From NCBI GenBank assembly GCA_016931995.1, contig JAFGDS010000005.1, positions 1 through 64,000 on the forward strand: 64,000 nt of DNA, read 5' to 3'. This DNA is from Pirellulales bacterium. Lineage in GTDB: Bacteria; Planctomycetota; Planctomycetia; Pirellulales; Thermoguttaceae. Positions 38,798 to 58,605 of this stretch are shown here, one piece after another; the first letter of the stretch is position 1; each line of letters opens with the position of its first letter. The notes beneath the pieces were generated by a model. The model worked only from the letters and a program-made list of their open reading frames with translations. It had not been told where the DNA came from and made no database searches. Both the position numbers and the translations under genes were made by a program.

Positions 38798-41700
38798 TCA
38801 CGCCGGGGCGGTCGAGCGCGGTTGGCCGGCCGCTGTCGTGACCGCCTCGACGACCTGGAAGAGTTCGTCGGGCCGAATCGGCTTGCAAATGTATCCGTCC
38901 ATCCCCACCGCGAGACACCGGTCCTGGAATCCCTTGAGCACGTGCGCCGTCATGGCCACGATGGGCGTGCGCGACGGCGCGTCCCGCTCCATCTCGCGGA
39001 TCGCGATGGTCGCGGCCAGGCCGTCCATTTCGGGCATTTCGACGTCCATGAGGAGGAGGTCGTATTGCCTCGCGCGGAACGCCTCGACGGCCTGCCGGCC
39101 GTTATCGACGGTCTCGACCGCGTGTCCGCGGAGTTGAAGCAGCCCGGCGGCGACCTCCTGATTGACGGGACTGTCGTCCGCCACGAGCACGCGCAACGAG
39201 CGGGGCGCGGGGCCCGACGCGCCGGGCCCCGCGCCGGTCGAGGTCTCGCGGGTTTCGATCGCGGCCGCGGCGGCGGCGATAAGTTCCGCGGCCTTGACGG
39301 GCTTGGCGAGGCAACGCGAGATGCCCATGCGACGGCAACGTTCGGCCGCCTCGATTTGCCCAGGCGGGAGCAATACCACCAGCGGAAGCCTCCGCGAGGC
39401 GGCGTCGTGGATCTGTTCGGCCAGGTCCAAACCCCGCGGGTTGGCGGCGGCCACGTCGATCAGGGCCAACGTTGGCGGCTCGGCGACGAACGACGGCGAC
39501 GCGAGCGCGGCCAAGGCGGCCGCGGCGTCATCGACGTCGTGAACCGACATGCCGGACGTGGAGAGAATCTCGGCAAGGGCGCGCCGCGCATTGCGATTCT
39601 CGCTCACCAGCAGGGCGTTGCCCGATAGACGCGGCGTCGACGCCCCCGCCTCCTCGCACCGTTCGCGATCCAGCGGCACGACGAATTGGAAGGCGCTGCC
39701 TTTCTCGGGTTGGCTTTCCACCCAGATTTTTCCGCCCATCAGGGCGACCAGTTGCGCCGAGATGGCCAGACCAAGGCCGGTGCCGCCGAATCGCCGCGTC
39801 ATCGAGCTGTCGCTCTGGCGGAACGCCTCGAAGATGCACTGTTGTTTGTCTTCCGGGATGCCGATGCCCGTGTCGCGCACGGCGAATCGCACGCGCGCCT
39901 GGGTCTCGGTGCTCGATTCCAACCACACGTTGACGAAGACCTCGCCCTGGGGGGTGAACTTGACGGCGTTGCCGACCAGATTGACGAGAACCTGGCGGAG
40001 CCGGTTGGCGTCGGCAACGAGTTGTTCGGGCACGTCCGGCGCGATGCGGCAGAGGAGCTCGATCCCTTTTTGGGCCGCCGGAACGGCCAGGAGGCGCAGG
40101 GCGCCCATGACGACCTCGGGCAACGAGAACGCGACGCTTTCGAGTTCCATCCTTCCCGCTTCGATCTTGGAGAAATCCAGCGTGTCGTTCAGAATTGCCA
40201 AGAGCGCGTCGGCGGAGTCCCGCGCGATGGTGATGTAGTCGCGCTGCTGGTCGGTCAACGACGTGTTCAGCACCAGGCCGGTCATCCCCAGGATCCCGTT
40301 CATGGGCGTGCGGATTTCGTGGCTCATGGTGGCCAGGAAGCGGCTTTTCGCCTGGTTGGCGGCCTCGGCGGCCTGTTTGGCGACGCGGAGCTCCTCCTGG
40401 GCGGCGCGGAGCTCGTTGGCGGTGCGTTCGAGTTCGCGCGCGCGGGCTTCCGCCGCCGCGGTCCGGTTGGCGACGCGTTTCTCGAGCGTTTGGTTCAATT
40501 GCTGCAATTCGGCGAAGCCCTCGGCGTTTTCCAAAGCCGCGCCGGCGATCGTGGCGATGAAGTCGGCCAGGCGCTCCTCGTCGGGGCCGAAAAGGCCGTG
40601 CACGTGCTCGTGGGTGACGTAGAGGCAAGCCACGGCGCGGCCGCGGACGAGCAGCGGCACGCACAAGGCGGACCGTTTCGCGGAGGAGGCGGCCCGGTCG
40701 CTCGTGTTCGCGCATACGTCCTCGACCGAAGCCACGGCCTGCCCTTTATCGAGCGCGCGGCGGAGAATCGCGTCCTCGAAATCACCGTCCTTGCCGTCAT
40801 CCAGGGGCGCGAACTGATACGCGTCGCCCGATTGGGTCACGCCGACCACCCGGCACGTCTCGCCGCGCAGCAATCGTTGGGCGGCGTCGCGGACTTGGTC
40901 AAAGACGGCGTCGGGCAACAAGGCGGAGGCGATTTTCCGGCCGGCATCGAGCACCGTCTCGAAGCGGTCCGCCAAGGAGAGCGTGATGGACGGGCCTACC
41001 CCCGGCGCGCGGTGGGAGGCGCCGTCGCTTGCGGCGGTCGCCTCGCGCAGGCGGCGTTGGGCGGCGCGGATCCGCTCTTCCGAACGCGGCCAACCAAGCT
41101 CGCGCCCGAGCTGGCCGCACGCCAGAAGCGTTTGGGCGAACTCGTGCCGCGCGCCATGGCGCCGCGCCACAACGAGGCTCACCCGCAGCAAACGACGCAG
41201 CCGGCGCGTCTTGCCGCGCAGCGCGCGGATCAGGGCGAGCTCGCGCAGCGCGTGGGGCAGATCGTTTTGGAGACGTTGGGCAACGCGGACGGCCCGGCGT
41301 GCCACCCGCTCGGCGCGACGCAGCAATCGGGCGCGTCGAGCGGGCAAGACGTCCGACAGCGCCTCGGCCTGACGCCGCAGCGCCGTGGCGAGCCACGGCA
41401 AGCTCGGCGCGACGTAGGCGCTCACCAATCCGAGGCGGCGCCCCACCTTCTGCGCGCGTTGAAAGACCGCCACGGCCTGCTCGTGTTGCCCGGCCGCGGA
41501 AAGCTGCACGCCCTGGGCAACAAGGACCTGCACGACGCCTTGGGCGTCGGGTCGCGCGCGATCGAGCTCCCGGCGAAGCGCGTCCTCTGGGACCCTGCCG
41601 CCCGATGCCAGCGACCAGATATCCAGGCTGATCCCGGAAGCCTGCTCGTCGCCGAGCTCCAGGCCGGACAGATGCATGCGGCGGGCTTCCGCCACGGCGG

Positions 41701-44700
41701 CCTGCATGTCGCCCAGCCGGTACAGCGCGGCCGCGATCTGATATTGGGCAATGTGCATCTCCCAGTAGTCGCCCATGCGTCCCAGCAACCGGACCGCTTC
41801 GCGGCATTTCGCGATGCACTGCTCGAATTGCGAGGCGGCGTACAGCGCGACCCCCCAGAAGCTCAACGATTGACCCTGCCCCCAAAGATCGTCCAGCGCG
41901 CGGCGGATTTCGAGCGACTTTTGGGCGTAGGCCACGCCGCGCCCGTACCAACCCACCAAGGTCAACGCCACGGCGTGTTCGGAGTACACTTGCGCCATCT
42001 CCACGGTTGGCGCGAATTGTTCGGCCAGGTTCATTCCGTGCAGATGCACCCAAAAGTTTCTCGCCCGGCCCCGCGTATAGAAGTAGCAGTAGGCCAATCG
42101 ACTGAGCAGCCGGAGCCCCAGCCGTTCCGCCTCCGAGGGCCGGCGCCGCCAGCCGACGAACACGCGGGGAAGCAACGTGTGGAGCAGTTGGACGAAGATT
42201 TCCCAGGGCAAGAGCAGCGTCAGGGCGAGAGAGACGGGCGCGGCCGATATTCCCACCAGACGCAACGCGGTCTCAAACGCCCTGTTCGCGCTTTCCATGT
42301 CGCCCTGTTTGAAGTCCAACTCGCCGAGTTTGCCCGTGATCTGGGCTCGCGCGAGTTTGCCCTCGGCCAGGCCCTCCGCTTCCTGGAGGACGTGCTTCGC
42401 CTCCGCGTACTGGCCGCGCAGCATCAGCACTTCGCCCAATCCCTCGCGGATGGCGTATCGCGTGGCGTTGTCCGTGGCGGCTTCCCCGCGCCGCGCGATG
42501 CGGTATTGCTGTTCGGCCACTTCCAGGGCGTGCCGCGACCGCGCCTGCTCCGCGGCCGCCAGCGCGTACGGAAGCGCCCTGGCGCTTTCGCCGGCGGCGT
42601 CGAAGTGGTAAGCCAGCTCGAATATGCGGTGCCGCGCGTGTTGCGCAAGATGGCGCGCGACGCGGGCGTGCAGCATGCGCTGCCGCTCCGCCGACATCCG
42701 CTCGAGCAGCGCGGCGCGAATCCTGTCATGCACGAACGCGCACTCGCTTGCGCCCGAGCGCATCCAGATGAAGTGTCGCTGGCTGGCTTCCTCCAGCGCG
42801 GCCGTCGCCTGTTCCGGGGAAAGCCCCTCGATCTGGGCGGCAAGGTGGAGATCGAACTCCTTGCCCAACACGGCGCCCACCGTCAACAGTTCGATGGTGG
42901 CCTGCGGCAACAGCTCGACCCGGCGAGCGAGGAACGCCGCCGCTTGGCTGGACGACTGGAGATTCGCCAGGGCCAACGGCTCGATCCGCCAGCCGTCGGC
43001 TGCGGCCTGCAACACGCCGGACTCCACCATCCCTCGCAAGAGAGCCGACGCCATGAACGGGCTGCCCTCGGATAGCCGGCCGATCACCTCCTCGGCCTCG
43101 GCGGGCAACGGGCCCGCCATCGATTCCAGGAGCCACCGCGTTTCGTCGGCGCCCAGTGGAGCGAGCCGCACGTGCACCGTGGGACGCGTCTTCCGCAGCG
43201 CGTGGTCCGCCGGGACCTCCTCGGTGCGGAAGGAGGCCAGCAACAGCACGCGGGAAGCCGGTCGCGACGCTCCTCCGCGAATCCGGCTCCAGTGCCCAAT
43301 GAGTTTGACCGACATCTCGTCGGCCCACTGGCAGTCGTCCAAGGCGACGAGGACCGGCCGCGGTCCCGAGCCCAAGGCGTCCAGAAACGCCGACAGCGCT
43401 TGCACGCTTCGCGCCTCGCCGAAGACTTCCGGACCCAACGTGCCCGAGGTTTCCCAACCAAACGCGTTTGCCAGATCCGGCAGGGCGGCGCACACGGCGT
43501 CCAGGTGTTCGCCCAACAGCGATCGGAGCGTCTCGGGCGCCGTGGGGTCGGCGATGGCGGCCGCGATCAGATCGTCGACAATTCCCTCGAAAACCTGGAA
43601 CGGCCGCGCGCCGATCTGCGCCAACGCGTGACCGCGTAGAATCCACATCCCGGCCTGGATGCCCCGGGTCGCCAACTCCGTCAGGAGCCGCGTCTTTCCT
43701 CCGCCGGAAAGAGCCTCGACGAACACCGTGGCGAAACCGCCCGCGACCACGCGGCCGATCTGTTCGTCAAGCCGCGCCAACTCGAGCCGGCGGCCGACCA
43801 GGGCGGGCTCGGTCAACGTCAGGCGACGGTCGTGCAGCCCCACCACCACGGGCGATGGTTCCGCCCCGTCCCGCGCCGCCGCGGCAATGTCCTCGAGATC
43901 CGCCAGAACCGCGCCCGCCGTTTGATAGCGGTCGCGAGGGTCCTTGTGCAGAAGCCGCCGAAGCAGCTCATCCAACGCCCTGGGGACGTCCAGCCCCATG
44001 GCTCGGAGCTCGGGAACGCGAGACGTCATTTGCCGAACGAGCACTCTTCCCACGGTGTCGCCGCCAAACGGCGGACTGCCCGCCAGGCACTCGAACAACA
44101 CGATGCCCGCCGAATACAAATCCGACGCGGCGCCGACCTCGCAATCCAACGCGCCGGCGCGTTCGGGCGACTGGTACAAGGCGGCTTCGATGGATTCCTC
44201 GCCGGTCCATTGGCTGCTGTTGGGGCAGCACCCGAAATTGAAGCCCGTCAACACGGCGGCGCCAAGGGGCGACGCCTCGTCGACGACGACGTTCGTCGGC
44301 CGGACGTCGCCGTGGAGCGCGCCTTCGGCGTGAACGTCGGCAAGCGCCGCGAACAAGCGGCAGCCAACCGTCAACGCGTCCGTCAAGTCGAGCGGCCCGC
44401 GGAGCAATCGCCGCGCCAGCGTGATCCCCGGCACGTGCGCCCGCACGACGTAGAACCGATTCGCCTCGCGCGCGAACGCCAGTACGGGCGCGAGCCACGG
44501 TCCGTGCAGTTTTTGCAGGATCGCCGCCCCGCGTTCCAGAGGGAGCGATTCCTCCTCCGAGGCGCCGGCCAACGTGACGAGTTCGACGACAACCTGCTCC
44601 CCGGTGACGAGGTCCGCGGCCAACAGCGTTTCGCCGGCCCGCGTCCTCTGGAGCGTCTTGACAACCTGATACCTGTTGCCCAGGCGCGTCGCGCCGGCGG

Positions 44701-44761
44701 GCAACAAGGACGGCGGCTCGGCCGGCCTCGCGGGCGTGTTGGATAAATCAGTGTGCTCCAT
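38798..44761 (-). CDS. Hybrid signalling protein: pseudokinase, AAA ATPase, helical repeats, GAF, histidine kinase, two receivers
   Basis: A 1,987-residue multidomain sensor. Residues about 30-290 form a Ser/Thr-kinase fold with HGDVRPTNV, but the VAIK lysine is replaced ([10 protein letters not shown]) and the DFG site reads TGFNFG, so it is probably a pseudokinase. An AAA-type ATPase follows with Walker [13 protein letters not shown] at about 350, then TPR-like helices to about 1280. A GAF domain spans about 1290-1420, and HisKA has [15 protein letters not shown] (His about 1481) with HATPase to about 1690. A first receiver appears degenerate; the second has [11 protein letters not shown] and [13 protein letters not shown] (Asp about 1904). 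Start [13 protein letters not shown] was chosen over an upstream frame without protein character. The input signal is unknown. Confidence 0.9.
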
Positions 44762-45037
44762 ACCTGAAAGCGTAGCCCCTGGCGGGGTATTCCCGCGGCC
44801 ACGTGCCAAAAAAGGGGGCTGCGCCGGACCGCCCCGCACGGGGTGGAGCCGCGCCGAATGTGACGATTGTATGGAGCGCCCGCGTCTGCGTCGGTCCGAA
44901 CGACGCGCCGAAACGGCGATCGCTGCCGGAATCATCTCGGCGCCGGAGGGATCGTGGCCGCTTGCACGCGCCGCGGACGGTGGCTAGATTATTGGGCGAG
45001 TCCCCCCACATCGTCCCGCCTTCACAAGGAGCCCGCC

Positions 45038-46855
45038 ATGCGATGCTCGCCTCTGGTCATTCTTCTGGCCTCAATCTGCATGTCCGACAGCGCCTCGGCT
45101 GAAGAGAGTCTTGTTCTTGCCGAACAGGGCAAGTCCGTCTACGCGATCGTGCTTCCCGACGAGCCAACCCTGTCGGAGAAGACGGCCGCCGCCGAACTTC
45201 AATCCCATCTGGAGAAGGCAACCGGCGCAAAGCTCGAGGTTTTATCCGAGGGTCAAGCCCCCGCCGAGCGGCCGGCGATCCTCGTCGGCGCGACCCAGCG
45301 GCTTGCGCGACTCTTGCCCGACGTGGACCTGGCCAAGCTCGGTTACGACGGCATCGTGCTCAAGACGGTCGGCAACGACGTGATCTTGGCCGGTCAAGGC
45401 AAGCGAGGCACGCTCTATGCCGTGTACACGTTCCTGGAGGACGTGGTAGGCTGCCGCTGGTGGACCTCGACGGAGTCGTTCATTCCCACGCGACCGACCC
45501 TTGCGATCGCAAGACTCGATCGCGTCTACGCGCCGAAGCTGCGGATCCGCGAGGCATTCTACCGCGACGCCTTCGACGGCGTCTTTGCCGCGAGGATGAA
45601 GTGCAATGGGCACAGCGACGCCGTGCCGGAGGAGTACGGCGGGCACGAGCACTTCGCCGGGTTCGTGCACACGTTCTTCCCCCTGCTGCCGCCGGACAAG
45701 TACTTCGCCGAGCACCCCGATTGGTACAGCGAGATTGACGGCAAACGCGTCCACCGCTACGCGCAGCTATGCCTGACCAACGACGCGATGCGCGAGGAGC
45801 TGACCAGAAACGCCCTGGCCCGTCTCCGGTCGGACCCGACCGCCAGCGTGATCTCCATCAGCCAGAACGACTGGCACGGGCGCTGCCAATGCGCGAAGTG
45901 CAAGGCCGTCGAGGAGGTAGAGGGTTCGCCCTCCGGTCCACTTCTGCGGTTTGTCAACGCGGTGGCCGAGGGCATCGAGAAGGAGTTTCCCGACGTGCTG
46001 GTAGAGACGCTGGCCTATCAATACACGCGGACGCCGCCGCGGCTCGTGCGTCCCCGGCGCAACGTCGTCGTGCGGCTCTGCTCGATCGAGTGCTCGTTTG
46101 TCCAGCCGCTGGCCGACGGTCCGCAAAATGCCCCGTTTCGCGCGGATCTGGAAGGCTGGAGCAAGGTGGCGCCGAAGCTGTACGTCTGGGACTACGTGAC
46201 GAACTTCTCGAACTACATTCTGCCGCACCCCAATCCGCCGGTGCTCGCGCCCAACATCCGCACGTTCGTCGATCACAACGTGATCGCCCTGTTCGAGCAG
46301 GGCGACGCGGGCAGCACGGTTGGCGACTTCGTGCGGCTCCGGGCGTGGCTCATCGCGCACCTGATGTGGGATCCCTCGCGGGACGACAAGGCGCTGGTCA
46401 AGGAGTTTCTCGAAGGCTACTATGGCCCCGCCGCGCCGCATCTGGCTGCCTATCTTGACGTGATCCAAGAGGCGGGCAAGCGGTCCGGCGCGTACGTGCG
46501 GTGCTTCATGCCCGACACGTCCGCCTGGCTCGCGCTGGACGACCTGAACGCCGCGGCGCGCCACTTCCAAAAGGCCGAAGCCGCCGTGGCCGACAATCCC
46601 GAGCTGGCCCGGCGGGTCCGACGCGAACGGCTCCCGCTCGATCACGCCTGGCTGCAACGCCACAAGGAACTGAAACAGGCCGCCCAAGCCGCCGGCAAGG
46701 AATTCCTCGGGCCGGCCGACCCCGTGGCCGCGTGCGAGGAGTTTATCCGCCTGGCCAACGAGCACCAGGTCGGCCAGTGCCGCGAGGGCGTCCCCTTCTC
46801 GGCCTACGAAGAGCAACTTCGCCAAAAGGCCCGCGAGGCGGCGACGTCGCCTTGA
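45038..46855 (+). CDS. Secreted DUF4838-type glycosidase-like protein
   Basis: A 605-residue exported protein: MRCSPLVILLASICMSDSAS with cleavage near SAEES, and AAGGAG before the ATG. Residues about 30-150 form an alpha/beta domain of the GH20/GH67 N-terminal type (TAAAELQSHLEKATGAKLEV, KRGTLYAVYTFLEDVVGCRWW). The following region (HTFFPLLPPDKYFAEHPDWY, then SQNDWHGRCQCAKCKAVEE) is characteristic of DUF4838 and resembles a GH67-like barrel. Substrate and activity are unknown. It is divergent from the hybrid kinase by 276 bases with no clear promoter pair between them. Confidence 0.88.
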   Translation: MRCSPLVILLASICMSDSASAEESLVLAEQGKSVYAIVLPDEPTLSEKTAAAELQSHLEKATGAKLEVLSEGQAPAERPAILVGATQRLARLLPDVDLAKLGYDGIVLKTVGNDVILAGQGKRGTLYAVYTFLEDVVGCRWWTSTESFIPTRPTLAIARLDRVYAPKLRIREAFYRDAFDGVFAARMKCNGHSDAVPEEYGGHEHFAGFVHTFFPLLPPDKYFAEHPDWYSEIDGKRVHRYAQLCLTNDAMREELTRNALARLRSDPTASVISISQNDWHGRCQCAKCKAVEEVEGSPSGPLLRFVNAVAEGIEKEFPDVLVETLAYQYTRTPPRLVRPRRNVVVRLCSIECSFVQPLADGPQNAPFRADLEGWSKVAPKLYVWDYVTNFSNYILPHPNPPVLAPNIRTFVDHNVIALFEQGDAGSTVGDFVRLRAWLIAHLMWDPSRDDKALVKEFLEGYYGPAAPHLAAYLDVIQEAGKRSGAYVRCFMPDTSAWLALDDLNAAARHFQKAEAAVADNPELARRVRRERLPLDHAWLQRHKELKQAAQAAGKEFLGPADPVAACEEFIRLANEHQVGQCREGVPFSAYEEQLRQKAREAATSP

Positions 46856-47151: not shown

Positions 47152-50100
47152 GTGGTGACCCAGCAACGTCTTGACAATGGCGACGCGCCGTCGCCCGCCC
47201 AATCGCAACGGATAGGGCGAATCGCCGAGCGGTTCGAGGCGGCGTGGAAAGCGGGTCGGCGGCCGAGTATCGAGGAGCATCTTCGCGACGCGGCGGCGGA
47301 CGACTACGTCCCGCTGCTGGCGCGGCTTCTGGCGGTCGACGTCGCGCAGCGCCGAGGCCACGACGATCGGCCGACGGCGGAAGACTACCGGGCTCGGTTC
47401 GCGACGCACGAGGAACTGATCGAAGCCGCCTTGCGCCTTGCGGCCGTCCCTTTCGAGAAATCGGAGGAGTCGACCTATCCGGGAACCCGCTCGCTCGAGC
47501 GGCGCGCTTCGGGCGACTTGTCGGCGACGGTGCCGTTCTCGTCGAAGTCGCCTCCGGCTTCGCCTCCGGCTTCGCCTCCGGCGGCCATGCCGTCCCGGCT
47601 CGGCCGCTATTCCGTGCGAGGGCAGTTGGGCGAGGGCGGATTCGGCGCCGTCTATCTCGCCCAGGACGACGAGCTTCAGCGCCTGGTGGCCATCAAGGTG
47701 CCGCACGCCGATCGATTCCGGTCGAGTTCGGACGTGGACGCGTTCCTGGAGGAGGCCCGCACGGTGGCCAAGCTGAGTCACCCCGCGATCGTGCCGGTGC
47801 ACGACTTCGGGCGCGAGGAGGACGGGACGTGTTTCGTCGTGATGCGGTACGTCGAGGGGCGATCGTTGGCCAACCTGATCCGATCGGAGCGGATTGGGCC
47901 GGCGCAGGCGGCAAGGTTGATAATTCCCATCGCCGAAGCGCTGCACTACGCCCATCAGCAAGGCATCGTTCATCGCGACGTCAAGCCGGGCAACATCCTT
48001 ATCGACGCGGCGGGCAGGGCGCTCGTGGCGGACTTCGGCCTGGCTCTTTCCGAGGAAGATTTCGGCAAGGGGAAACACTCGGTCGGAACTCCCGCGTACA
48101 TGAGCCCGGAGCAGGCTCGCGGCGAGGGGCACCTGGTGGATGGGCGGTCGGACATTTTCAGCCTTGGGGTGGTCCTGTACGAGTTGCTCACCGGCGTCCG
48201 TCCGTTCCGCGGCGGCAGCATGCAAGAGACTCTGGATCGCGTTCGCTCGCTCGAGGTCCGTCCTCCAAGACAGTACGACGACACCATCCCGAGGGAGTTG
48301 GAACGGATCTGTCTGAAGGCGTTGTGCAAGCGCGCGTCGGATCGCTACAACACGGCGGGAGACATGGCCCAGGACCTTCGCCAATGGACCGTCGAGGCGG
48401 AGACCGCGCCGGCGCGGACCTCGTCGGTCGAGGCGGCGGCGCCGGCCCCCCGGCTGGCCCAGGTGGTTCCCAAGGGTTTGCGATCGTTTGACGAAAACGA
48501 CGCCGACTTCTTCCTTCGGCTCTTGCCGGGGCCGTACGACCGGGACGGCCTGCCGGCGACGATCCGTTTCTGGAAAGCGGCGGTCGAGCAGACCGATCCC
48601 GACAAGACGTTTCGCGTGGGCATGCTTTACGGCCCCAGCGGTTGCGGCAAGTCGTCGCTGGTGCGGGCTGGCCTGCTGCCCTTGTTGGCCGACCACGTCG
48701 TGGTCCTGTACGTCGAGGCGACGCGCGACGACACGGAGATGCGGCTTGCGCGCGGTCTGGCGAAACGGTTTCCGGGTTTCGCGGACGGCCAGAGCCTGGT
48801 CGACGGGCTGACGAGGTTGCGGCGCGGAGAGGGAATCCCGCCGGGCAAGAAGCTGCTAATTGTATTGGATCAGTTCGAGCAGTGGCTCCACACGCGCAAC
48901 GACTACGCGGAGCAACCGCTGGTGCGGGCCTTGCGGCAATGCGACGGGGGCCGGATCCAATGCATCGCGACCGTCCGCGACGATTTCTGGATGGCCGCCA
49001 CGCGGTTCATGCACGACCTGGAAATCCCCCTGCTCGAATCCCACAACAGCGCGGCGGTCGATCTGTTCAACGTGCCCCACGCCCAAAAGGTGCTCGCGGA
49101 CTTCGGACGCGCGTTCGGGCAACTGCCGCCCGAGCCGATGCCGCTCTCCAAGGACCAGTCGCAGTTCATCGCGAACGCCGTCGACGGCCTCGCGCAGGAC
49201 GACCGCGTCATCTCCGTCCGGCTGAGCCTGTTTGCCGAGATGGTCAAGGGCAAATCCTGGACCCCCGCCACGCTCAAGGAGCTCGGCGGCGCCGAGGGGA
49301 TCGGCCTGAAGTTTCTCGAGGAGACCTTCAACGCCACCCATGCGCCGCTCGAGCAACGCCTGCACCAGAAGGCCATCCGCGCCGTGCTCGCCGCGTTGCT
49401 GCCCGAGCCGGGAAGCGATTTGAAAGGCGCGATGCGGTCGCGACACGACCTGATGCAGGCCGCGGGCTACGCGGATCGGCCAGCGGATTTCGACGCCGTG
49501 GTGCGGATCCTGGATGAGCTTCATCTCGTGACGCCCACGGACCCGAAGCAGCTCTCCCTGGACGATTCGGTGTCGCGGGACGAGCCAGCCGCGGACGAGA
49601 CGTATTATCAGCTCACGCACGACTACCTGGTGCCGTCGCTTTTTGAATGGCTCAACCAAAAACGCCGCGAAACCCGCCGGGGGCGCGCCGAATTGCTGCT
49701 GGAGGAGCGCACCCAGCAGTGGACGCAGTCGCGGCACGATCGGCTGTTGCCGTCGCTACGGGAGTCGCTGCTCGCGGCGATCTTCACGCGCCGCCGCGGG
49801 CGGACGCCCGCGCAGCGGAAGACGCTCCGCCGCGCGTTTCTCGTCCACGGGCGGAGGCTACGACATATCCAGATACTCCAGATAGGCTTTCTGCACTTCC
49901 AGCGCGACCAACTGGTATGCCAGCTTCCGTTCGTAAGACGCCCGGGCCTGATCGCACTGCGCCTGCCGCTGTCGCGCGCCGCGGCGCCCCCCCGTGAAGA
50001 TCGGGATCCCCAGGTTCACGCCCACCGACCATTCCTGTCGGTCGTTCGGATTCAGGTAGCCGCCGTCGTCGTCGATGGTCGCCATCCGGCCGAACAGACT

Positions 50101-50439
50101 CAAATCCGGAAAATAGTCCGCCCTGGCCAGCTTGCGCTCCAGGTCGGCAATCTGAACGCCGATCCGCGCCTTGGCCAGCTCCGGACGTTGGACCATGGCC
50201 TCGCCGAGGATGGCGGGCAATTCCACGTCCCGCCGGTGGGCGACCAGCCGGCCGTCGGCGATGTCAAACTCCGTTGCCGCGTCCATTCCCATTGCCTGCC
50301 GCAGGGCTTCGTGGGCCAGCACGGCGGCCTGCCGCGCGCCGACCCGCTCGCTCTCGGCCATGTACCGGATGGCCTGCACCCGATGCAGGTCGACGGTCGT
50401 GACGTACCGATCGCCCTGGTCCAGCAGGGCGCGGATTAG
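47152..50439 (+). CDS. Ser/Thr protein kinase-nSTAND1 ATPase, apparently 3'-truncated
   Basis: Open frame of 1,095 codons starting GTG (GGGAGG upstream). Residues about 150-410 are a complete PknB-like kinase: LGEGGFGAVYLAQ, VAIKVPH, IVHRDVKPGNI, DFGLAL, GTPAYMSPEQARG. An nSTAND1-type ATPase follows, with P-loop MLYGPSGCGKSSLVRAGLLP at about 494 and LLIVLDQFEQWLH. Family resemblance stops near residue 895 (TPAQRKTLRRAF), where homologues usually continue into a membrane helix and WD40 or FGE domains. Beyond it the frame is merely the antisense of the convergent tolC-type gene for about 580 bases. The true product is probably a C-terminally truncated kinase with a junk tail. Confidence 0.82.
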   Translation: MVTQQRLDNGDAPSPAQSQRIGRIAERFEAAWKAGRRPSIEEHLRDAAADDYVPLLARLLAVDVAQRRGHDDRPTAEDYRARFATHEELIEAALRLAAVPFEKSEESTYPGTRSLERRASGDLSATVPFSSKSPPASPPASPPAAMPSRLGRYSVRGQLGEGGFGAVYLAQDDELQRLVAIKVPHADRFRSSSDVDAFLEEARTVAKLSHPAIVPVHDFGREEDGTCFVVMRYVEGRSLANLIRSERIGPAQAARLIIPIAEALHYAHQQGIVHRDVKPGNILIDAAGRALVADFGLALSEEDFGKGKHSVGTPAYMSPEQARGEGHLVDGRSDIFSLGVVLYELLTGVRPFRGGSMQETLDRVRSLEVRPPRQYDDTIPRELERICLKALCKRASDRYNTAGDMAQDLRQWTVEAETAPARTSSVEAAAPAPRLAQVVPKGLRSFDENDADFFLRLLPGPYDRDGLPATIRFWKAAVEQTDPDKTFRVGMLYGPSGCGKSSLVRAGLLPLLADHVVVLYVEATRDDTEMRLARGLAKRFPGFADGQSLVDGLTRLRRGEGIPPGKKLLIVLDQFEQWLHTRNDYAEQPLVRALRQCDGGRIQCIATVRDDFWMAATRFMHDLEIPLLESHNSAAVDLFNVPHAQKVLADFGRAFGQLPPEPMPLSKDQSQFIANAVDGLAQDDRVISVRLSLFAEMVKGKSWTPATLKELGGAEGIGLKFLEETFNATHAPLEQRLHQKAIRAVLAALLPEPGSDLKGAMRSRHDLMQAAGYADRPADFDAVVRILDELHLVTPTDPKQLSLDDSVSRDEPAADETYYQLTHDYLVPSLFEWLNQKRRETRRGRAELLLEERTQQWTQSRHDRLLPSLRESLLAAIFTRRRGRTPAQRKTLRRAFLVHGRRLRHIQILQIGFLHFQRDQLVCQLPFVRRPGLIALRLPLSRAAAPPREDRDPQVHAHRPFLSVVRIQVAAVVVDGRHPAEQTQIRKIVRPGQLALQVGNLNADPRLGQLRTLDHGLAEDGGQFHVPPVGDQPAVGDVKLRCRVHSHCLPQGFVGQHGGLPRADPLALGHVPDGLHPMQVDGRDVPIALVQQGAD
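47550..47582 (+). repeat. 12-bp in-frame tandem repeat in the kinase gene
   Basis: GCCTCCGGCTTC repeated 2.7 times, encoding a flexible SPPASPPASPPA linker between the N-terminal region and the kinase domain. Length variation between strains would change only linker length. Confidence 0.7.
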
Positions 50440-51183
50440 GCGTTCGATCGCGCTCAATTGGCCGACCGCGTCGTCCATGACCAACGTCAGCTCCCGCGCC
50501 AGTTGCACGCCGAGGTACGCCTGCGTCACGTCGAAGGCCGTCTGCTGCTTCGATTTCGCAACGTCGGCGCTGGCGGCCCGAACGCCCAGCTGCGCCTGCC
50601 GGTAGCGGCCGTCGATCTTGCCGCCGGTCCACAACGGCTGGACCATCATCAACTCCGTCGAGAGGCTGTTCTCGCCCAGCAGGCCGACGCGGAACTTGTC
50701 GGGCAGCGCGTCCAGCGCCGCCTGCTTCACCACGCTGAAAGGCGGAACGTTGGGGTTGTCCAGCGCGGCGGCCGCCGCGGCGCTGCCCGCCTGGCGGGCA
50801 ATGCCAAAATACGCCGCCGCGTCGGAGAAGACGTCTCCCACCTCGCCGGTGAACGGGCTGGGAAAGTCAACCGACCGCGGCTGGTCCAGATGGGCGTACC
50901 GAGCCCCGAATCCGATCTGAGGGAGGTAATACGATCTCGCGACGTCGCGCTGCCCAGCCGCCGCCCCCAATGCCGAGGACCGCGCGCGGATGGCAGGCTG
51001 ATTGCGAAGCGCCACGTCGATGCACTCGTCGAGCGTGAAGGTATACGTCGGCGGGCCGGCCGGTACCGGCGCCGGCGGCATCTGCGCCGAAAGCCGTTGC
51101 GGCGCCGCCAGTATGCAGAGGAAGACGACAGGCACAACGACCGCATCCTGCCGAACGCGCCGCGGACGAGGCGATGGGAACAT
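49858..51183 (-). CDS. TolC-family outer-membrane efflux protein, apparently C-terminally truncated
   Basis: A 441-residue outer-membrane factor precursor: signal region AVVVPVVFLCILAAPQRLSA, then TFTLDECIDVALRNQPAIRA, the standard TolC opening, and helical-hairpin segments QTAFDVTQAYLGVQLAREL and VTTVDLHRVQAIRYMAESER. The second repeat starts normally (EWSVGVNLGIPIFTGGRRGA) and reaches LALEVQKAYLEY-like helix sequence, but stops at EYLDMS. Relatives usually have roughly 100 further residues completing the last hairpin. AAAGGGG precedes the ATG. Its 3' end meets the truncated end of the convergent kinase gene, so both may have been cut by one event. Function as a pore is doubtful. Confidence 0.8.
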   Translation of the reverse strand: MFPSPRPRRVRQDAVVVPVVFLCILAAPQRLSAQMPPAPVPAGPPTYTFTLDECIDVALRNQPAIRARSSALGAAAGQRDVARSYYLPQIGFGARYAHLDQPRSVDFPSPFTGEVGDVFSDAAAYFGIARQAGSAAAAAALDNPNVPPFSVVKQAALDALPDKFRVGLLGENSLSTELMMVQPLWTGGKIDGRYRQAQLGVRAASADVAKSKQQTAFDVTQAYLGVQLARELTLVMDDAVGQLSAIERLIRALLDQGDRYVTTVDLHRVQAIRYMAESERVGARQAAVLAHEALRQAMGMDAATEFDIADGRLVAHRRDVELPAILGEAMVQRPELAKARIGVQIADLERKLARADYFPDLSLFGRMATIDDDGGYLNPNDRQEWSVGVNLGIPIFTGGRRGARQRQAQCDQARASYERKLAYQLVALEVQKAYLEYLDMS

Positions 51184-51384: not shown

Positions 51385-52185
51385 TCACTTGGCCGCGAGC
51401 CGATCGGGAAGGAACTGGTGATCGGCGTTGAACAACCGGCGGTAGCCCAGCAGGACGACGCCCGCCGTGCCGAGGGTGCTCGCGGCCGCGATGAAGAACA
51501 TGATGGCCACCTGGTAGCGGACGGCCATGTTCGGGTCGACGCCCGAGAGGAGCTGGCCGGTCATCATGCCGGGCAGGCTCACGATGCCCATCACGGTCAT
51601 TGCGTTGATCGTCGGGATGAGGCCCGTGCGGATGGACTGCTGGACGATCTCGCGGGCGGCCTCCCAGCGCGTCGCGCCCAGGGCCAGCAGGGTTTCGATC
51701 TCGGTTCGCCGTTGGGCCATTTCGCCGCAGAACCGGTTCAGCCCGAGCGACACGCCGTTGAGCGTGTTGTGCAGGATCATGCCGAGCATGGGGATGGCGT
51801 ATTGGGCGCGGTACCACGGGTCGGGGCGCACCACGGCCGCCAGCGCCACGCCGGTCACCAGCCAGGAGCACGCCCAAATGGCCACCACGCTGTCCAGCCC
51901 CATGCCTGGATAGCGCCGCTCGCCGCGGCCCATGGCCACGACGCCGGCGATCACGGTCATGGCCATGGCCAGGCTGAAGATGACGTACCACGCCCTGTCT
52001 GGCGCAAAGACCCACTTCAACACCATGCCGATCAGGAGCAATTGCACGACGCACCGCAGCGACGCCCACAAGAGCCGGCCGTGGAGCCCCAGACGTAGCA
52101 CGATGGACAGCAAGGCGCTGGCGACGATCAGCGTCGTGGCCACGCCTAGTTGCCCAAGCGACAGTTCGATCAGATCGCCGTTCAT
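51385..52185 (-). CDS. fetB: FetB/UPF0014-type ABC permease
   Basis: Inner-membrane permease of 266 residues, the membrane half of a FetAB-type transporter, which in E. coli is linked to iron homeostasis and peroxide resistance. CVVQLLLIGMVLKWVF, MAMTVIAGVVAMGRGERRYP, IPMLGMILHNTLNGVSLGLN and EIETLLALGATRWEAAREIV are family signatures, followed by MTGQLLSGVDPNMAVRYQVA. The start overlaps the fetA stop by 4 bases (ATGA), so a longer frame reaching into fetA is rejected. Physiological substrate uncertain. Confidence 0.9.
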   Translation of the reverse strand: MNGDLIELSLGQLGVATTLIVASALLSIVLRLGLHGRLLWASLRCVVQLLLIGMVLKWVFAPDRAWYVIFSLAMAMTVIAGVVAMGRGERRYPGMGLDSVVAIWACSWLVTGVALAAVVRPDPWYRAQYAIPMLGMILHNTLNGVSLGLNRFCGEMAQRRTEIETLLALGATRWEAAREIVQQSIRTGLIPTINAMTVMGIVSLPGMMTGQLLSGVDPNMAVRYQVAIMFFIAAASTLGTAGVVLLGYRRLFNADHQFLPDRLAAK

Positions 52186-52859
52186 GTTTCGTCTCCCGCC
52201 GAGAGCCGGCCCGCGCACATCCGCCATGGCGCGATACCCAGCCGCTCGACCTGGGCGGCGTCGTGGCTCACCCAAACGATCGCCCTGCCGTCGGGCGCCG
52301 CGGCGATCCAATCCACGAGCCACCGCTCGACCGCTTGGGCGGTTGCCGGGTCCAAAGCGGACGTCGGTTCGTCCAGGAGCAACACCGTCGGATCGAGCGC
52401 CGCGGTCCGCACCAGCGCCGCTATCTGGGCCTCTCCGCCGGAGAGATCGCCCGTCTTTTTGTCCAGAAACCCAGTGTCCCGACCCAACGTCTGGAACATC
52501 GCCTCCGCGCGGTTGGTGTCGAACCGCTGCCCTCGCCGCAGCGCAATCGCGTACGGCCGGGCCAGCGCCTCGCGGACCGTCTGGCCCAACAGCGCCGGCC
52601 GCTGGTGGAGGTAAGCGACCTGGCTACGGAAGCCGGGCACGCGGTCGCGCCGGGCGGGCTCGCCGCGCAGACGGACCTCGCCGGCGTCCACTGGGTCCAA
52701 CATCGCCATCGCCCGCAACAGCAGCGTCTTGCCCGAGCCCGACGGACCCGACACGCCGATGATCCGCCCGGCCGGCACCGCCAACGAGACGTGGTCCACA
52801 AGCCACGCCTCCGCCCGCGGCGCGCGCCGCGCGATCCCCACGGCTTCCAGAAGCGGCAT
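52182..52859 (-). CDS. fetA: FetA-type ABC ATPase
   Basis: A 225-residue ATPase paired with the FetB-like permease. Walker A VSGPSGSGKTLLLRAM, Q-loop region RSQVAYLHQRPALLGQTVRE, signature LSGGEAQIAALVRT, Walker B VLLLDEPTSALDP and switch IVWVSHDAAQ are intact. The signature LSGGEAQ instead of LSGGQ matches FetA-type members. Start MPLLEAVGIARRAPRAEA is taken over an upstream ATG that would add 12 residues. First gene of the two-gene leftward operon, divergent from the efflux operon by 176 bases. Confidence 0.9.
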   Translation of the reverse strand: MPLLEAVGIARRAPRAEAWLVDHVSLAVPAGRIIGVSGPSGSGKTLLLRAMAMLDPVDAGEVRLRGEPARRDRVPGFRSQVAYLHQRPALLGQTVREALARPYAIALRRGQRFDTNRAEAMFQTLGRDTGFLDKKTGDLSGGEAQIAALVRTAALDPTVLLLDEPTSALDPATAQAVERWLVDWIAAAPDGRAIVWVSHDAAQVERLGIAPWRMCAGRLSAGDET

Positions 52860-52987
52860 GATGTTTTCTCTCTTCAACGCACGATAGGGTGGCACGGCCT
52901 TCGCTGCGTTCAGGCCGTGCCACCGAAACCGCTCCCCTTGACCCCGTTTCGCCCGAAAAAAACCTCGTTTTCGGTCCGTCCGTTCCT

Positions 52988-53035: not shown

Positions 53036-54310
53036 ATGAGGACTTTTCTGATTGCGATTGTTTTGGCCGTCGTCGGCGGATTGGGCACGGTGGGCGTGCT
53101 CAAAATCCGCGACTTCTGGCGCGAGCGGCACAAGCCCACGTTCCACGAGGCCAAGGTCGCCCGCGGCGAGATCGTGGCCGTCGTGAACTCCACCGGCACG
53201 GTGCAGCCGGTGATCAAGGTGCCCGTGGGGACATTCGTCTCGGGACCGATCAAAGAACTCTTGGCTGATTTCAACGATCACGTCAAGGAAAAGCAGTTGA
53301 TGGCCCAGATCGACCCGCGGATCTACAAGGCCGCGGTTGCCCGCGACGAGGCTTCGCTGGCCACGGCCCGGGCGGAGCTCGCGCGGGTGACGGCGCTGCG
53401 TCAGCAGGCGATCAACGACGAGCGCCGGGCCGAGCAGCTCCGCAAGATCAATCCGGACTACCTGGCCGAGTCGGCCATGGACCAATACCGCTTTGCCCGG
53501 CAATCGTACGACGCGCAGCTCGATGTGGCCCACGCGGCGATCAAGCAGGCCGAGGCCATGCTGGAGAACTCGGAGGCCAACCTCGAATACACGAACATCC
53601 GCTCGCCGGTGGACGGGATCGTCATTGCCCGGAGGATCGACGAAGGCCAGACGTTGGCCGCGCAGTTTGCCACGCCGGAGCTGTTCATCGTCGCGCCCAG
53701 GATGGAGGAGGAGATGTACGTGTACGCCTCGGTGGACGAGGCCGACATCGGCATGATCCGCGAGGCGCAGCGTCAAGACGCCCCGGTCGAGTTCACCGTC
53801 GACACCTGTCCGGAGGACCTTTTCAAGGGACGCATCGCGCAGGTCAGGATGGACCCCACCGTGCTGGAGAACGTCGTGACCTACCCCGTCGTCGTCACAA
53901 CGCCGAATCCTGACCTGAAGTTGATGCCCGGCATGACGGCGAGCATCTCGTTTCGCGTGGGCCAGAAGTCCAACGTGTTAAAAATTCCCAACGCGGCGCT
54001 GCGATTTTACCCCAAGCCCGAGTTCGTCCATCCCGACGACAAGGACATCCTCGAAGGCGCCTCGGACGACGAGAAGGTGGCGGATAACGAAGAAGAAGGT
54101 CAAGACGAAGACGCGAAGAACCGCCGCTCCGCCTCGCAGAAGGCCGACGCCGGCCGCAAACGCCACCAGCGACACGTCTGGGTCCTCGAAGACAACTTGC
54201 TAAGGGCCGTGCCCGTCACTATCGGCCTGAGCGACAACGAATACACCGAACTCGTCAAGGGCGACCTGAAGGAAGGCCAGGCCCTCGTGACGAGGGTGGA
54301 AGAACCGTAG
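53036..54310 (+). CDS. macA: MacA-type membrane fusion protein
   Basis: Periplasmic adaptor of an ABC efflux pump, 424 residues, anchored by an N-terminal helix (FLIAIVLAVVGGLGTVGVL). VARGEIVAVVNSTGTVQPVI and KVPVGTFVSGPIKELLADFN open the barrel-sandwich; a coiled-coil hairpin spans about residues 85-175; YTNIRSPVDGIVIARRIDEG closes the lipoyl domain, and LMPGMTASISFRVG lies in the barrel. An acidic low-complexity insertion (DDEKVADNEEEGQDEDAKNR, about residues 345-365) separates the barrel from the last domain. First gene of macA-macB-macB-tolC, 4 bases before the permease. Confidence 0.9.
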   Translation: MRTFLIAIVLAVVGGLGTVGVLKIRDFWRERHKPTFHEAKVARGEIVAVVNSTGTVQPVIKVPVGTFVSGPIKELLADFNDHVKEKQLMAQIDPRIYKAAVARDEASLATARAELARVTALRQQAINDERRAEQLRKINPDYLAESAMDQYRFARQSYDAQLDVAHAAIKQAEAMLENSEANLEYTNIRSPVDGIVIARRIDEGQTLAAQFATPELFIVAPRMEEEMYVYASVDEADIGMIREAQRQDAPVEFTVDTCPEDLFKGRIAQVRMDPTVLENVVTYPVVVTTPNPDLKLMPGMTASISFRVGQKSNVLKIPNAALRFYPKPEFVHPDDKDILEGASDDEKVADNEEEGQDEDAKNRRSASQKADAGRKRHQRHVWVLEDNLLRAVPVTIGLSDNEYTELVKGDLKEGQALVTRVEEP

Positions 54311-54314
54311 AACC

Positions 54315-55562
54315 ATGCACCTCCTCATCACCCTCCGAATCGCCCTGCGGGCTTTGCGTAAGAACAAGCTCCGCGCCACGCTGACGATCCTCGGCGTCGT
54401 CATCGGCATCGCCGCGGTGACGGCCATGGTTTCCATCGGCCAAAGCGCCAGCGATCTGGTCCAAGGACAGTTCGAGGCCCTGGGCACCAACGTGATCGTG
54501 ATCTTCTCCAGCGGTCACCGCCGCGGACCGGTCCAGCAGGGCCAGGGCGCCATGCCCAAGCTCACCGCCAGCGACAGCGAGGCCATCGCCACCGAGTGCC
54601 CCGCCGTGCTGGCCGCCTCGCCCATCGTGGGTTTTGGCGGGCAAGTGGTCTACGGCAATTCCAACTGGCGGCCACGCGAGATGGTCGGCGTTGGGATCGA
54701 CTACCTCACCGTGCGCAACTGGTCGCTCCGGCACGGCGGCTTCTTCACCGACCGCGACATCACGTCGGCCGCCAAGGTTTGCGTCATCGGCCGGACGATC
54801 GTCGCCAAGCTCTTCCAGACGACCAATCCACTGGGCGAAACCATCCGCATCCGCAACATCCCCTTCCGCATCATCGGCATCCTCGAAACCAAGGGCGCCA
54901 ACCTGGTCGGCGAGGATCAAGACAACGTCATCATGATGCCGCACACCACGGTGGCCAAGCGGTTGCGGCACACGTCGTTCGAGGCGGTCGACGTCATCCT
55001 CGTCTCCGCCCGGGCGAACGACCGCATGTCGGAGGCGGAAAACGAGATCCGCCAGCTTCTGTTCGAGCGGCACAACATCCCGCCGGGCGAGCCCGCCGAC
55101 TTCGAAGTGAAGAACACGACCGAGATCGCCAAGGTGCTCGACATCATCACCGGCACCATGACCCTCTTGCTCTCGTCCATCGCCGGCATCTCGCTCGTGG
55201 TCGGCGGCGTGGGCATTATGAACATCATGCTCGTCTCGGTGACCGAGCGCACCCGCGAGATCGGCGTCCGCATGGCCGTCGGCGCCCGCGGGGGCGACAT
55301 CCTCCGGCAGTTCCTCATCGAGTCGGTGCTCCTGGCGATGATCGGCGGATTGATGGGCTTCGCGCTGGGCGTGGGCCTGTCCGTCGGACTGACGGCCATC
55401 ATCAACACCTTCATGAACTCCGTGAAATGGCCCACCGTTATCTCGATACCCGCCGCCGTGCTGGCGATCGTCTTCTCCAGCGCGGTGGGCATCGTTTTCG
55501 GATTCTACCCCGCTTGGCGCGCCTCGAAGCTCGACCCGATCGAGGCGTTGCGATACGAGTAG
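54315..55562 (+). CDS. MacB-type ABC transporter permease
   Basis: A 415-residue permease with four helices: one near the N-terminus (ATLTILGVVIGIAAVTAMVS), a large periplasmic MacB_PCD domain, and three near the C-terminus in the FtsX-like domain. SIAGISLVVGGVGIMNIMLV, SVTERTREIGVRMAVGARGG and the ending YPAWRASKLDPIEALRYE are classic for MacB. Unlike E. coli MacB the ATPase is a separate gene downstream. Exports an unknown substrate, together with the adaptor and the TolC-type protein of this operon. Confidence 0.94.
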   Translation: MHLLITLRIALRALRKNKLRATLTILGVVIGIAAVTAMVSIGQSASDLVQGQFEALGTNVIVIFSSGHRRGPVQQGQGAMPKLTASDSEAIATECPAVLAASPIVGFGGQVVYGNSNWRPREMVGVGIDYLTVRNWSLRHGGFFTDRDITSAAKVCVIGRTIVAKLFQTTNPLGETIRIRNIPFRIIGILETKGANLVGEDQDNVIMMPHTTVAKRLRHTSFEAVDVILVSARANDRMSEAENEIRQLLFERHNIPPGEPADFEVKNTTEIAKVLDIITGTMTLLLSSIAGISLVVGGVGIMNIMLVSVTERTREIGVRMAVGARGGDILRQFLIESVLLAMIGGLMGFALGVGLSVGLTAIINTFMNSVKWPTVISIPAAVLAIVFSSAVGIVFGFYPAWRASKLDPIEALRYE

Positions 55563-55723
55563 TCATCCTGAGCGAAGCGGAGGATCTCCGTCGCGTCGAA
55601 GGACCTTCCAGATCCTTCGCTTCGCTCAGGATGACGAGGAAACGGCCTTTTGCCCAGAGCATCAGCGATTGTCCTTCCACACAACACCCATCTTGTTAAT
55701 CCTGTCAATCCTGTCCAATTGAA
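55562..55723. repeat. Family A palindrome and TTAATCCTGTCAATCCTGTC spacer
   Basis: GTCATCCTGAGCGAAGCGGA with its facing arm GATCCTTCGCTTCGCTCAGG forms a 75-bp palindrome from the permease stop to about 55635. TTAATCCTGTCAATCCTGTC then leads almost directly to the ATPase start. The latter sequence resembles a spacer repeat I have seen in other bacteria, but I find only this copy in the window. Confidence 0.7.
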
Positions 55724-55724
55724 T

Positions 55725-56516
55725 ATGCCCCTAATCGAGCTCTCTGACGTCTGGAAAGTCTACGACCTCGGCGAGGTCCAGGTCGAGGCTCTGCGCGGCG
55801 TGTCGGTGTCGATCGAGCGGGGCGAGTACGTGGCGCTGATGGGCCCCTCCGGCTCGGGCAAGTCCACGCTGATGAACACGCTGGGCTGTCTCGACCGACC
55901 CAGCCGCGGAAGCTATCTGCTCGACGGCGAGGAGGTCTGCGACATGTCGCTGGCCGCCCGGGCGAGGCTGCGCAACCGGCGGATCGGCTTCGTCTTCCAG
56001 AACTTCAACCTTTTGGCCCGCACCAGCGCGCTGGAAAACGTCGAGTTGCCGCTGCTGTATTCCCGGGGCGTCTCCGCCCGGCAACGCCGCCGTCGCGCGG
56101 CCGAGATGCTCGAGAAGGTCGGGCTGGGCGATCGGATGGACCATCATCCCGGCCAGCTCTCCGGTGGCCAGCAGCAGCGCGTGGCCATCGCTCGGGCTCT
56201 CGTGAACGCCCCCTCCATCCTCATGGCCGACGAGCCCACCGGAAACCTCGATTCCCAGACCAGCCGCGAGGTAATCCAGATCCTTCGCGAGCTGAACACC
56301 CAGGCCGCCATCACGATCATCCTGGTAACCCACGACCAAGCCATCGGCCGCCACGCCCGGCGGACGCTCGTCCTGCGCGACGGGACGATCGTCGAGGACA
56401 CGGCGGACTTCGCCCGGGCGCTGGCCGCGCTGCATGCCGAGGGCGATGGGGACGGGGAAGCCCACGTGGTGCCGCCACCCCACCTGCCGGTCGGGCAGGT
56501 GCAACAGCCGCGTTGA
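55725..56516 (+). CDS. MacB/LolD-type ABC transporter ATPase
   Basis: A 263-residue ATPase for the adjacent permease. LRGVSVSIERGEYVALMGPS and GSGKSTLMNTLGCLDRP (Walker A), IGFVFQNFNLLARTSALENV (Q-loop), LSGGQQQRVAIARALVN (signature), ILMADEPTGNLDSQTS (Walker B) and LVTHDQAIGRHARRT (switch) are all intact. The C-terminal 25 residues (from about EGDGDGEAHVV) are an unusual extension beyond the domain. No clear Shine-Dalgarno precedes the ATG, because the spacer is made of repeats; polar coupling to the permease may be weak. Confidence 0.93.
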   Translation: MPLIELSDVWKVYDLGEVQVEALRGVSVSIERGEYVALMGPSGSGKSTLMNTLGCLDRPSRGSYLLDGEEVCDMSLAARARLRNRRIGFVFQNFNLLARTSALENVELPLLYSRGVSARQRRRRAAEMLEKVGLGDRMDHHPGQLSGGQQQRVAIARALVNAPSILMADEPTGNLDSQTSREVIQILRELNTQAAITIILVTHDQAIGRHARRTLVLRDGTIVEDTADFARALAALHAEGDGDGEAHVVPPPHLPVGQVQQPR

Positions 56517-56637
56517 CTTTAACGGTTGCGGGGATTCCGCGGACCGTATCGGTCGAAACGGCCGGTCGAGGCGGCGCGTGCCGTTTCTGCCGTTTGTAGG
56601 GCACTTTTCCAGGTCCGATCGTGCCGAATACACCAGT

Positions 56638-58605
56638 ATGACTGGTTGTAACCGCGCGCTGGGTCGTATCGTATTGTGGGGTTGGCTGGCCCTTGCGGCC
56701 GCGCTGGCCGCGCCGGCGGCCGAGCCCTGGCACGTCATCCTGCCCGAGCAGCGGAACATGGAGATCCGCGATCCCGCGCGGATCACGCCCGTGCGCCTGC
56801 CGCCACTACCCACTCCGCCGACCGTCTCCGAACTCCAGCCGCCGGACGCCGCGGCCGTGTGGAACCTCTCGCTGGACGAAGCCATCCGGATCGGCCTGGC
56901 CAATTCCGAGGTGATCCGCGTGTTGGGCGGCTCGAGCGGCCGGACGATCTACGACCCGGCGGTCACGAACACGCAGATCGACCAGGCCCGGGGCACGTTC
57001 GACCCCAACCTGGAACTCGACAACAACTTCTACCGCGGCGAGACGCCCAGCGAGGCGCTCGACCCGACCGACCCTTCGGGCGTGCGGATCGGCGGGATTG
57101 GCACGAACGACTATGCGATGCGGATGGGCATGTCGAAGCGAGGGCCCACCGGCGCCACGGCCGGCGTCCACGTCAACGCCAACCCGCGGCAATACAACGT
57201 GCCTGGCTTCCCGCTTAATCCGCGCTCGCCCTCGTCGGTCGACTTGAGCCTGACGCAGCCGCTCTTGCGGGGCGGCGGCTGGGCGGCTAACCTCGCGCCG
57301 ATCGAGATCGCCCGGATCGACACCGAGCGGTCGTTTTTCCAGATGAAGGACGCCGTGCAGGAGATGGTCCGCGGCGTGATCCAGGGCTACTGGGCCCTGG
57401 TGGCCGCGAGGACGGACGTTTGGGCCCGTCAACAACAAGTCAAACAAACCACCGAAGCTTTGAAGTACGCCCAAGCGCGGCTTCAGACGGGCTCGGCCAA
57501 CCTGCAGGACGTGGCCCAGGCCAGCTCGGCCTTGGCCGACTTCCGCGCGGCCTTGATCACGGCCGAGGCGACCGTGCTGGTGCGCGAGGCGGCTTTGCGC
57601 AACATCCTCGGGCTGCCTCCGTCGGTGCCGTCGCGGATCGTGCCTGTTAGTCCGCCCTCGGCCGAGCGACTCGACGTAAGCTGGCCGTCGATCCTGGAGG
57701 TGGCTTCCGTGCGGCGACCCGATCTGGTCGAGCTGAAGCTCGTTCTGGAAGCCGACGAGCAGCGCCATCTGCTGCGACGCAATGAGGCCCTGCCGCGGGT
57801 GGACGCCGTGGCGCTGTACCGCTGGAACGGACTGGAGGGCCGCACGCCCGACCGCGAACTGATCGCGACCCGACCGGGCGAGTTCACCGAATGGCAGTTG
57901 GGCGTGAATTTCTCCGTGCCGCTGGGCTTGCGGGCGCCGCGGGCGGCGCTGCGTCAGCAGGAGCTGGTCATCCGGCGGGATCGGGCCAACATCGATCAGG
58001 GACTGCATAACGCCGCGCACCGGCTGGCCGACAACTACCGCAACCTTGCCCAATACTACGATCAGTATCGGGCGTACCAGGAGAGCCGCGCCGCGTCGCA
58101 GGTGAACCTGGACATGCAGACGGCCGTGTACTCGGTCGGCCAGGCCCGCCAAGGCGAACAGGCCATCTTCCTCAACGTGCTTCAGGCGATCACCTCCTGG
58201 GGCAACGCGGTCAGCGCCGAGGCCCAGGCCCTCACGGCGTACAACACGGAGCTGGCCAATCTGGAGCGCGAGTCGGGCATCATTCTCGAGGCGCACGGCG
58301 TCCGGTTCGTCGAGGAGCGCTACGCCTCGATCGGTCCGTTGGGTCGCCTGTTCGCCGAGCGGTGCTACCCTCGCGACTTCCACCCCTGTCCCAACGCACC
58401 GCGCTATTCCGACTCGGGCCAGCCGGCCGAGAACGCGTTCAATCTGCAAGACCCTCTCGAGCCGATGCGGCAACCTCGGCAGGGCGGCGCAAGCCCTCCG
58501 CCGCAGGGCAGTCTCCCGCCGGCGCGAAGCGACATCGAGCTTCGCGTGCCCGAGCGGGTTCCTCCGCCCGCGCCGCTGCCCACGACGGAGCCGCCGGGGC
58601 GGTAG
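56638..58605 (+). CDS. TolC-family outer-membrane efflux protein
   Basis: Outer-membrane factor completing the efflux operon, 655 residues. The signal region RIVLWGWLALAAALAAPAA supports this start over a longer frame. NLSLDEAIRIGLANSEVIRV, YDPAVTNTQIDQARGTFDPN, SVDLSLTQPLLRGGGWAANL and ALKYAQARLQTGSANLQDVA are typical, and the second repeat is complete, ending ALTAYNTELANLERESGIIL. A Pro-rich tail of about 100 residues follows the fold (RYASIGPLGRLFAERCYPRD onward). Unlike the TolC-type gene at 49.9-51.2 kb it is full length, so it is the likely partner of MacAB. Confidence 0.9.
   Translation: MTGCNRALGRIVLWGWLALAAALAAPAAEPWHVILPEQRNMEIRDPARITPVRLPPLPTPPTVSELQPPDAAAVWNLSLDEAIRIGLANSEVIRVLGGSSGRTIYDPAVTNTQIDQARGTFDPNLELDNNFYRGETPSEALDPTDPSGVRIGGIGTNDYAMRMGMSKRGPTGATAGVHVNANPRQYNVPGFPLNPRSPSSVDLSLTQPLLRGGGWAANLAPIEIARIDTERSFFQMKDAVQEMVRGVIQGYWALVAARTDVWARQQQVKQTTEALKYAQARLQTGSANLQDVAQASSALADFRAALITAEATVLVREAALRNILGLPPSVPSRIVPVSPPSAERLDVSWPSILEVASVRRPDLVELKLVLEADEQRHLLRRNEALPRVDAVALYRWNGLEGRTPDRELIATRPGEFTEWQLGVNFSVPLGLRAPRAALRQQELVIRRDRANIDQGLHNAAHRLADNYRNLAQYYDQYRAYQESRAASQVNLDMQTAVYSVGQARQGEQAIFLNVLQAITSWGNAVSAEAQALTAYNTELANLERESGIILEAHGVRFVEERYASIGPLGRLFAERCYPRDFHPCPNAPRYSDSGQPAENAFNLQDPLEPMRQPRQGGASPPPQGSLPPARSDIELRVPERVPPPAPLPTTEPPGR

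Follow-up and report, generated by a model that had tools for sequence, protein, structure and literature searches.

Two convergent genes, kinase-nSTAND1 and tolC, truncated at one shared breakpoint in a draft Pirellulales genome

Pairs of pseudogenes that arise in bacteria through deletion or rearrangement between convergent genes are a known general phenomenon. The locus described here likewise consists of two genes cut at one breakpoint and shows nothing unusual in comparison: one encodes a Ser/Thr protein kinase fused to an nSTAND1 NTPase, the other a TolC-type outer membrane efflux protein. Proteins in which nSTAND1 is combined with an FGE/C-lectin-fold domain at the C-terminus are proposed sensors of conflict systems, with sensing assigned to the FGE domain (PMC10907252). 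The window, i.e., the whole stretch of DNA analyzed, comprises the first 64 kb of the 84,211-base contig C66, which belongs to a draft assembly of 5.43 Mb in 153 contigs with a completeness of 99.13%. The genus itself yielded no genome for comparison, so that the intact ancestral gene order was not seen. The features around the junction are the following:

45080..46855, + strand, DUF4838/GH67N-type protein of the left flank (Pfam PF16126)
47152..49848, + strand, 5' part of the gene for the Ser/Thr protein kinase with nSTAND1 NTPase, homologous to relatives over about 899 residues
49849..49866, no strand, breakpoint interval GGGCGGAGGCTACGACAT, with kinase homology ending on its left and TolC homology on its right in alignments to full-length relatives
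49849..50439, + strand, extension of the kinase frame, antisense to tolC, without homology (no Pfam match past residue 863)
49858..51183, - strand, truncated TolC-type outer membrane efflux protein of 441 aa, lacking the end of its second OEP repeat
51385..52877, - strand, FetB-like permease (UPF0014; Pfam PF03649) and FetA-like ATPase of the right flank

The kinase protein of the window matches Pkinase (PF00069) at residues 153-401 (E 5e-49) and nSTAND1 (PF20703) at residues 441-863 (E 1e-21) in a Pfam scan, its kinase and Walker (NTPase) motifs are intact, and its relatives, sought among 60 related genomes, are 40-60% identical to it. Through residue 899 it shares the domain order of Ser/Thr kinase - nSTAND1 - TM - FGE-sulfatase proteins (PF00069, PF20703, PF03781), but it lacks their TM helix, spacer and FGE/C-lectin-fold domain; past residue 863 neither a Pfam match in general nor a TM helix or FGE-sulfatase domain match was obtained. 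Homology stops at residue 897-899, the last shared stretch reading TLRRAFLVHG and residue 899 being the histidine encoded at 49846-49848. The first-pass annotation, made from the sequence alone, had thus recognized a true end of homology, placing it near 49838, slightly too far left. It had also expected relatives to continue into a membrane helix and further domains, and this is what they do: aligned relatives from five genomes have a hydrophobic helix directly after the homologous stretch and then a long tail, which ends in an FGE-sulfatase (C-lectin-fold) domain in all three relatives scanned. Open frames of 1208-2078 aa were found in each of the 12 listed genomic matches from the 60 related genomes that reach at least query residue 894, and among the close relatives aligned none ends at the residue where the homology of the window copy stops.

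The TolC protein retains a complete first OEP repeat (PF02321) and most of the second, which is covered only at positions 6-117 of 187, so that compared with other TolC/OEP proteins the last ∼70 model positions of repeat 2 are missing. Its three closest relatives, all from one genus of another family in the same class, show 38-39% identity, have open frames of 559-639 aa and share with it the motif LxALEVQKxYxEYL(D/E). Homology runs to EYLD (last base 49867) and is followed in the window by two residues and a TAG stop (49858-49860), whereas the relatives extend 75-81 aa further; the truncation proposed earlier therefore stands, with this shorter length in place of the ∼100 residues then expected after EYLDMS. 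None of the aligned relatives ends at the last homologous residue of the window copy, and no significant hidden continuation was detected past its stop. Genomes of the same family yielded only weak tolC matches, which stay under 30% along most of the gene, and scanning of named species genomes for close relatives gave a single remote match. Judged from these comparisons, the gene may have arrived by transfer or have undergone widespread loss. Since close relatives from its own family are missing among the genomes searched, kinase and tolC were maybe not long-standing neighbors. In that other family we observed two loci (L092, 5987-11857, and L091, 2991-6704) at which a PhnD-like gene comes after an intact tolC and a convergent gene comes next; the product of the latter is a kinase protein in L092, perhaps carrying WD40 repeats, and a WD40-like protein in L091. 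This arrangement resembles the kinase-tolC convergence of the window, but the kinase is a different one.

Beyond the breakpoint the kinase frame and tolC are exactly codon-opposed; the first-pass annotation had already described this part, some 580 bases, as mere antisense. Only the tolC codons TTA, CTA and TCA can stop the kinase frame, and together they account for 54 of the 22,763 codons on the contig (0.24%). From the codon frequencies of the contig, the chance that 195 codons stay open is 0.63, and the length of the antisense frame is therefore without meaning. A selected coding sequence in this tail was ruled out, as it is open by chance and contains no domain.

The two frames converge at about 49.85 kb, where 18 bases separate the ends of homology while the relatives of both proteins run on. 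Both genes are thus truncated at one shared point. Two unrelated endings at such a distance call for one event, in line with the single deletion or recombination joining the middles of two genes that had been put forward from the sequence. That both short forms are natural functional variants which end at the same place by coincidence would fit their uninterrupted frames and the intact kinase and NTPase motifs, but neither residue is an endpoint in any close relative, TolC is deprived of part of a structural repeat and the kinase frame terminates in nothing but the antisense of tolC; we strongly disfavor this explanation and give it hardly any probability. Neither fragment shows decay beyond the truncation, which indicates either a recent event or an assembly error; under the former reading the intact frames suggest that the event is recent. 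A search at the junction for repeats or ends of mobile elements found only short imperfect repeats, and intrinsic terminators were not found there at the convergent ends.

We looked in the genome itself for the lost 3' ends, using the 697-aa tail taken from the best kinase relative and a profile of six kinase tails on one side, and the OEP family and a profile of TolC tails on the other. Within the limits set by a draft assembly of 153 contigs and 99% completeness, neither profile nor single sequence revealed an orphan kinase tail or TolC tail, and a relaxed search of the whole of contig C66 gave no relics of them. All matches to the kinase tail fall in its FGE part (profile positions of at least 416), the best one, at 22168, lying in a separate FGE open reading frame of 390 aa. 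In G027, a genome of the same family, an orthologue of this gene (70%) is located between orthologues of its neighbors in the window, and because of this conserved setting it is not the lost piece of the kinase; as a complete gene, it was ruled out as a displaced tail. The sole match to the TolC tail is inside another TolC-family gene (contig C77) that has both OEP repeats.

The absence of both tails bears on the main rival explanation, an inversion with breakpoints in tolC and the kinase gene whose reciprocal junction was later lost, has diverged or falls into an assembly gap. An inversion in its balanced form keeps both tails, but neither was found in the assembly or on the contig, and a loss of DNA is therefore needed in any case.

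A draft genome of 153 contigs, together with two open fragments free of decay, would also be compatible with an assembly artefact, in which either the contig is a chimera, an alternative that the first-pass annotation had itself raised, or two places of one genome were wrongly joined. Signs of a chimera (sides of different origin, repeat-mediated misjoining) were looked for but not seen. Each side carries a gene with only one full-length orthologue in the genome, GcvPA (1959-3293) to the left and RarA (78908-80233) to the right; their best matches, at 74% and 82-83% identity, respectively, come from genomes of the same family. Composition is uniform across the junction, tetranucleotide correlations between its two sides (0.71-0.81) being normal in that they fall within the range of 18 other contigs, whose mean is 0.78 and whose minimum is 0.65. 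A genome search able to show repeats from a few tens of bases upward gave no further copy of the DNA of the junction region, and a repeat-driven misjoin within the genome is therefore unlikely. Nor were the tails left over on other contigs, which also speaks against an artefact.

The strongest evidence for a real junction is synteny. In G013, which belongs to a different genus of the same family, FetA-FetB and the DUF4838 protein are encoded within 3 kb of each other on one contig, with identities to the window of 70% for FetB and 72% for the DUF4838 protein; two PEP-CTERM-like proteins, as read from the sequence, lie between them. In G027 the DUF4838 gene is upstream of and adjoins an ApbE-FGE-oxidoreductase set, which in the window is found at 20.6-24.5 kb and lies 20-25 kb upstream of DUF4838. 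From the synteny in these two genomes we conclude that a gene of the left flank and genes of the right flank form one neighborhood in the family. A contig chimera is thus disfavored by flanking genes that are neighbors in a relative, by single-copy genes of the same family on either side and by a junction without repeat, and we regard it as unlikely. A suspected chimera of this kind can be checked by synteny in relatives where reads are missing. The window holds DUF4838, FetAB and ApbE-FGE-oxidoreductase, all in changed order and orientation relative to G013 and G027. On the left side, the minus strand at 38798-44935 encodes a 2045-aa protein whose N-terminus reads as Ser/Thr kinase-like and which would combine it with a large ATPase region, a histidine kinase and response-regulator-like domains.

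In G013 DUF4838 and FetAB share one orientation, but in the window they face each other, and the neighborhood has therefore been rearranged. This flip makes inversion with loss a serious alternative to a plain deletion, as does the position of DUF4838 relative to ApbE-FGE-oxidoreductase, upstream in G027 and 20-25 kb downstream in the window; we nevertheless consider the inversion rather improbable. A junction of deletion type is preferred, and with reasonable though not full confidence we interpret it as a genuine chromosomal junction produced by one illegitimate recombination event that truncated both kinase and tolC. Such an event would have fused a kinase-nSTAND1-(TM-FGE) gene, cut in its middle, to the convergent tolC, likewise cut in its middle, at the cost of ∼430-700 kinase codons (for the TM helix, the spacer and the FGE/C-lectin-fold domain), ∼75-80 codons of tolC and the DNA between the two genes. 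While the truncations, their common breakpoint and the missing tails are directly visible in this assembly, we infer that a single event, of deletion nature, caused them and that function was lost.

For annotation, the 1095-aa kinase open reading frame should not be taken as a natural fusion and the TolC protein of the window should carry a truncated label. With its second repeat incomplete, this TolC is probably non-functional. An HlyD - MacB-like permease - ATPase - TolC set is encoded just right of it (53063-58605), and the tolC of this set (56674-58605) carries both OEP repeats. The loss of the truncated tolC could have been made tolerable by this neighboring gene. The kinase, judged by its domains, is probably left as a fragment that is soluble and has no sensor, its antisense tail being meaningless; that, free of membrane anchor and FGE sensor, it would still be expressed and act as a deregulated, soluble conflict kinase whose new tail derives from antisense sequence seems to us most doubtful. 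The junction is ordinary gene decay, a commonplace breakage of an already known kind.
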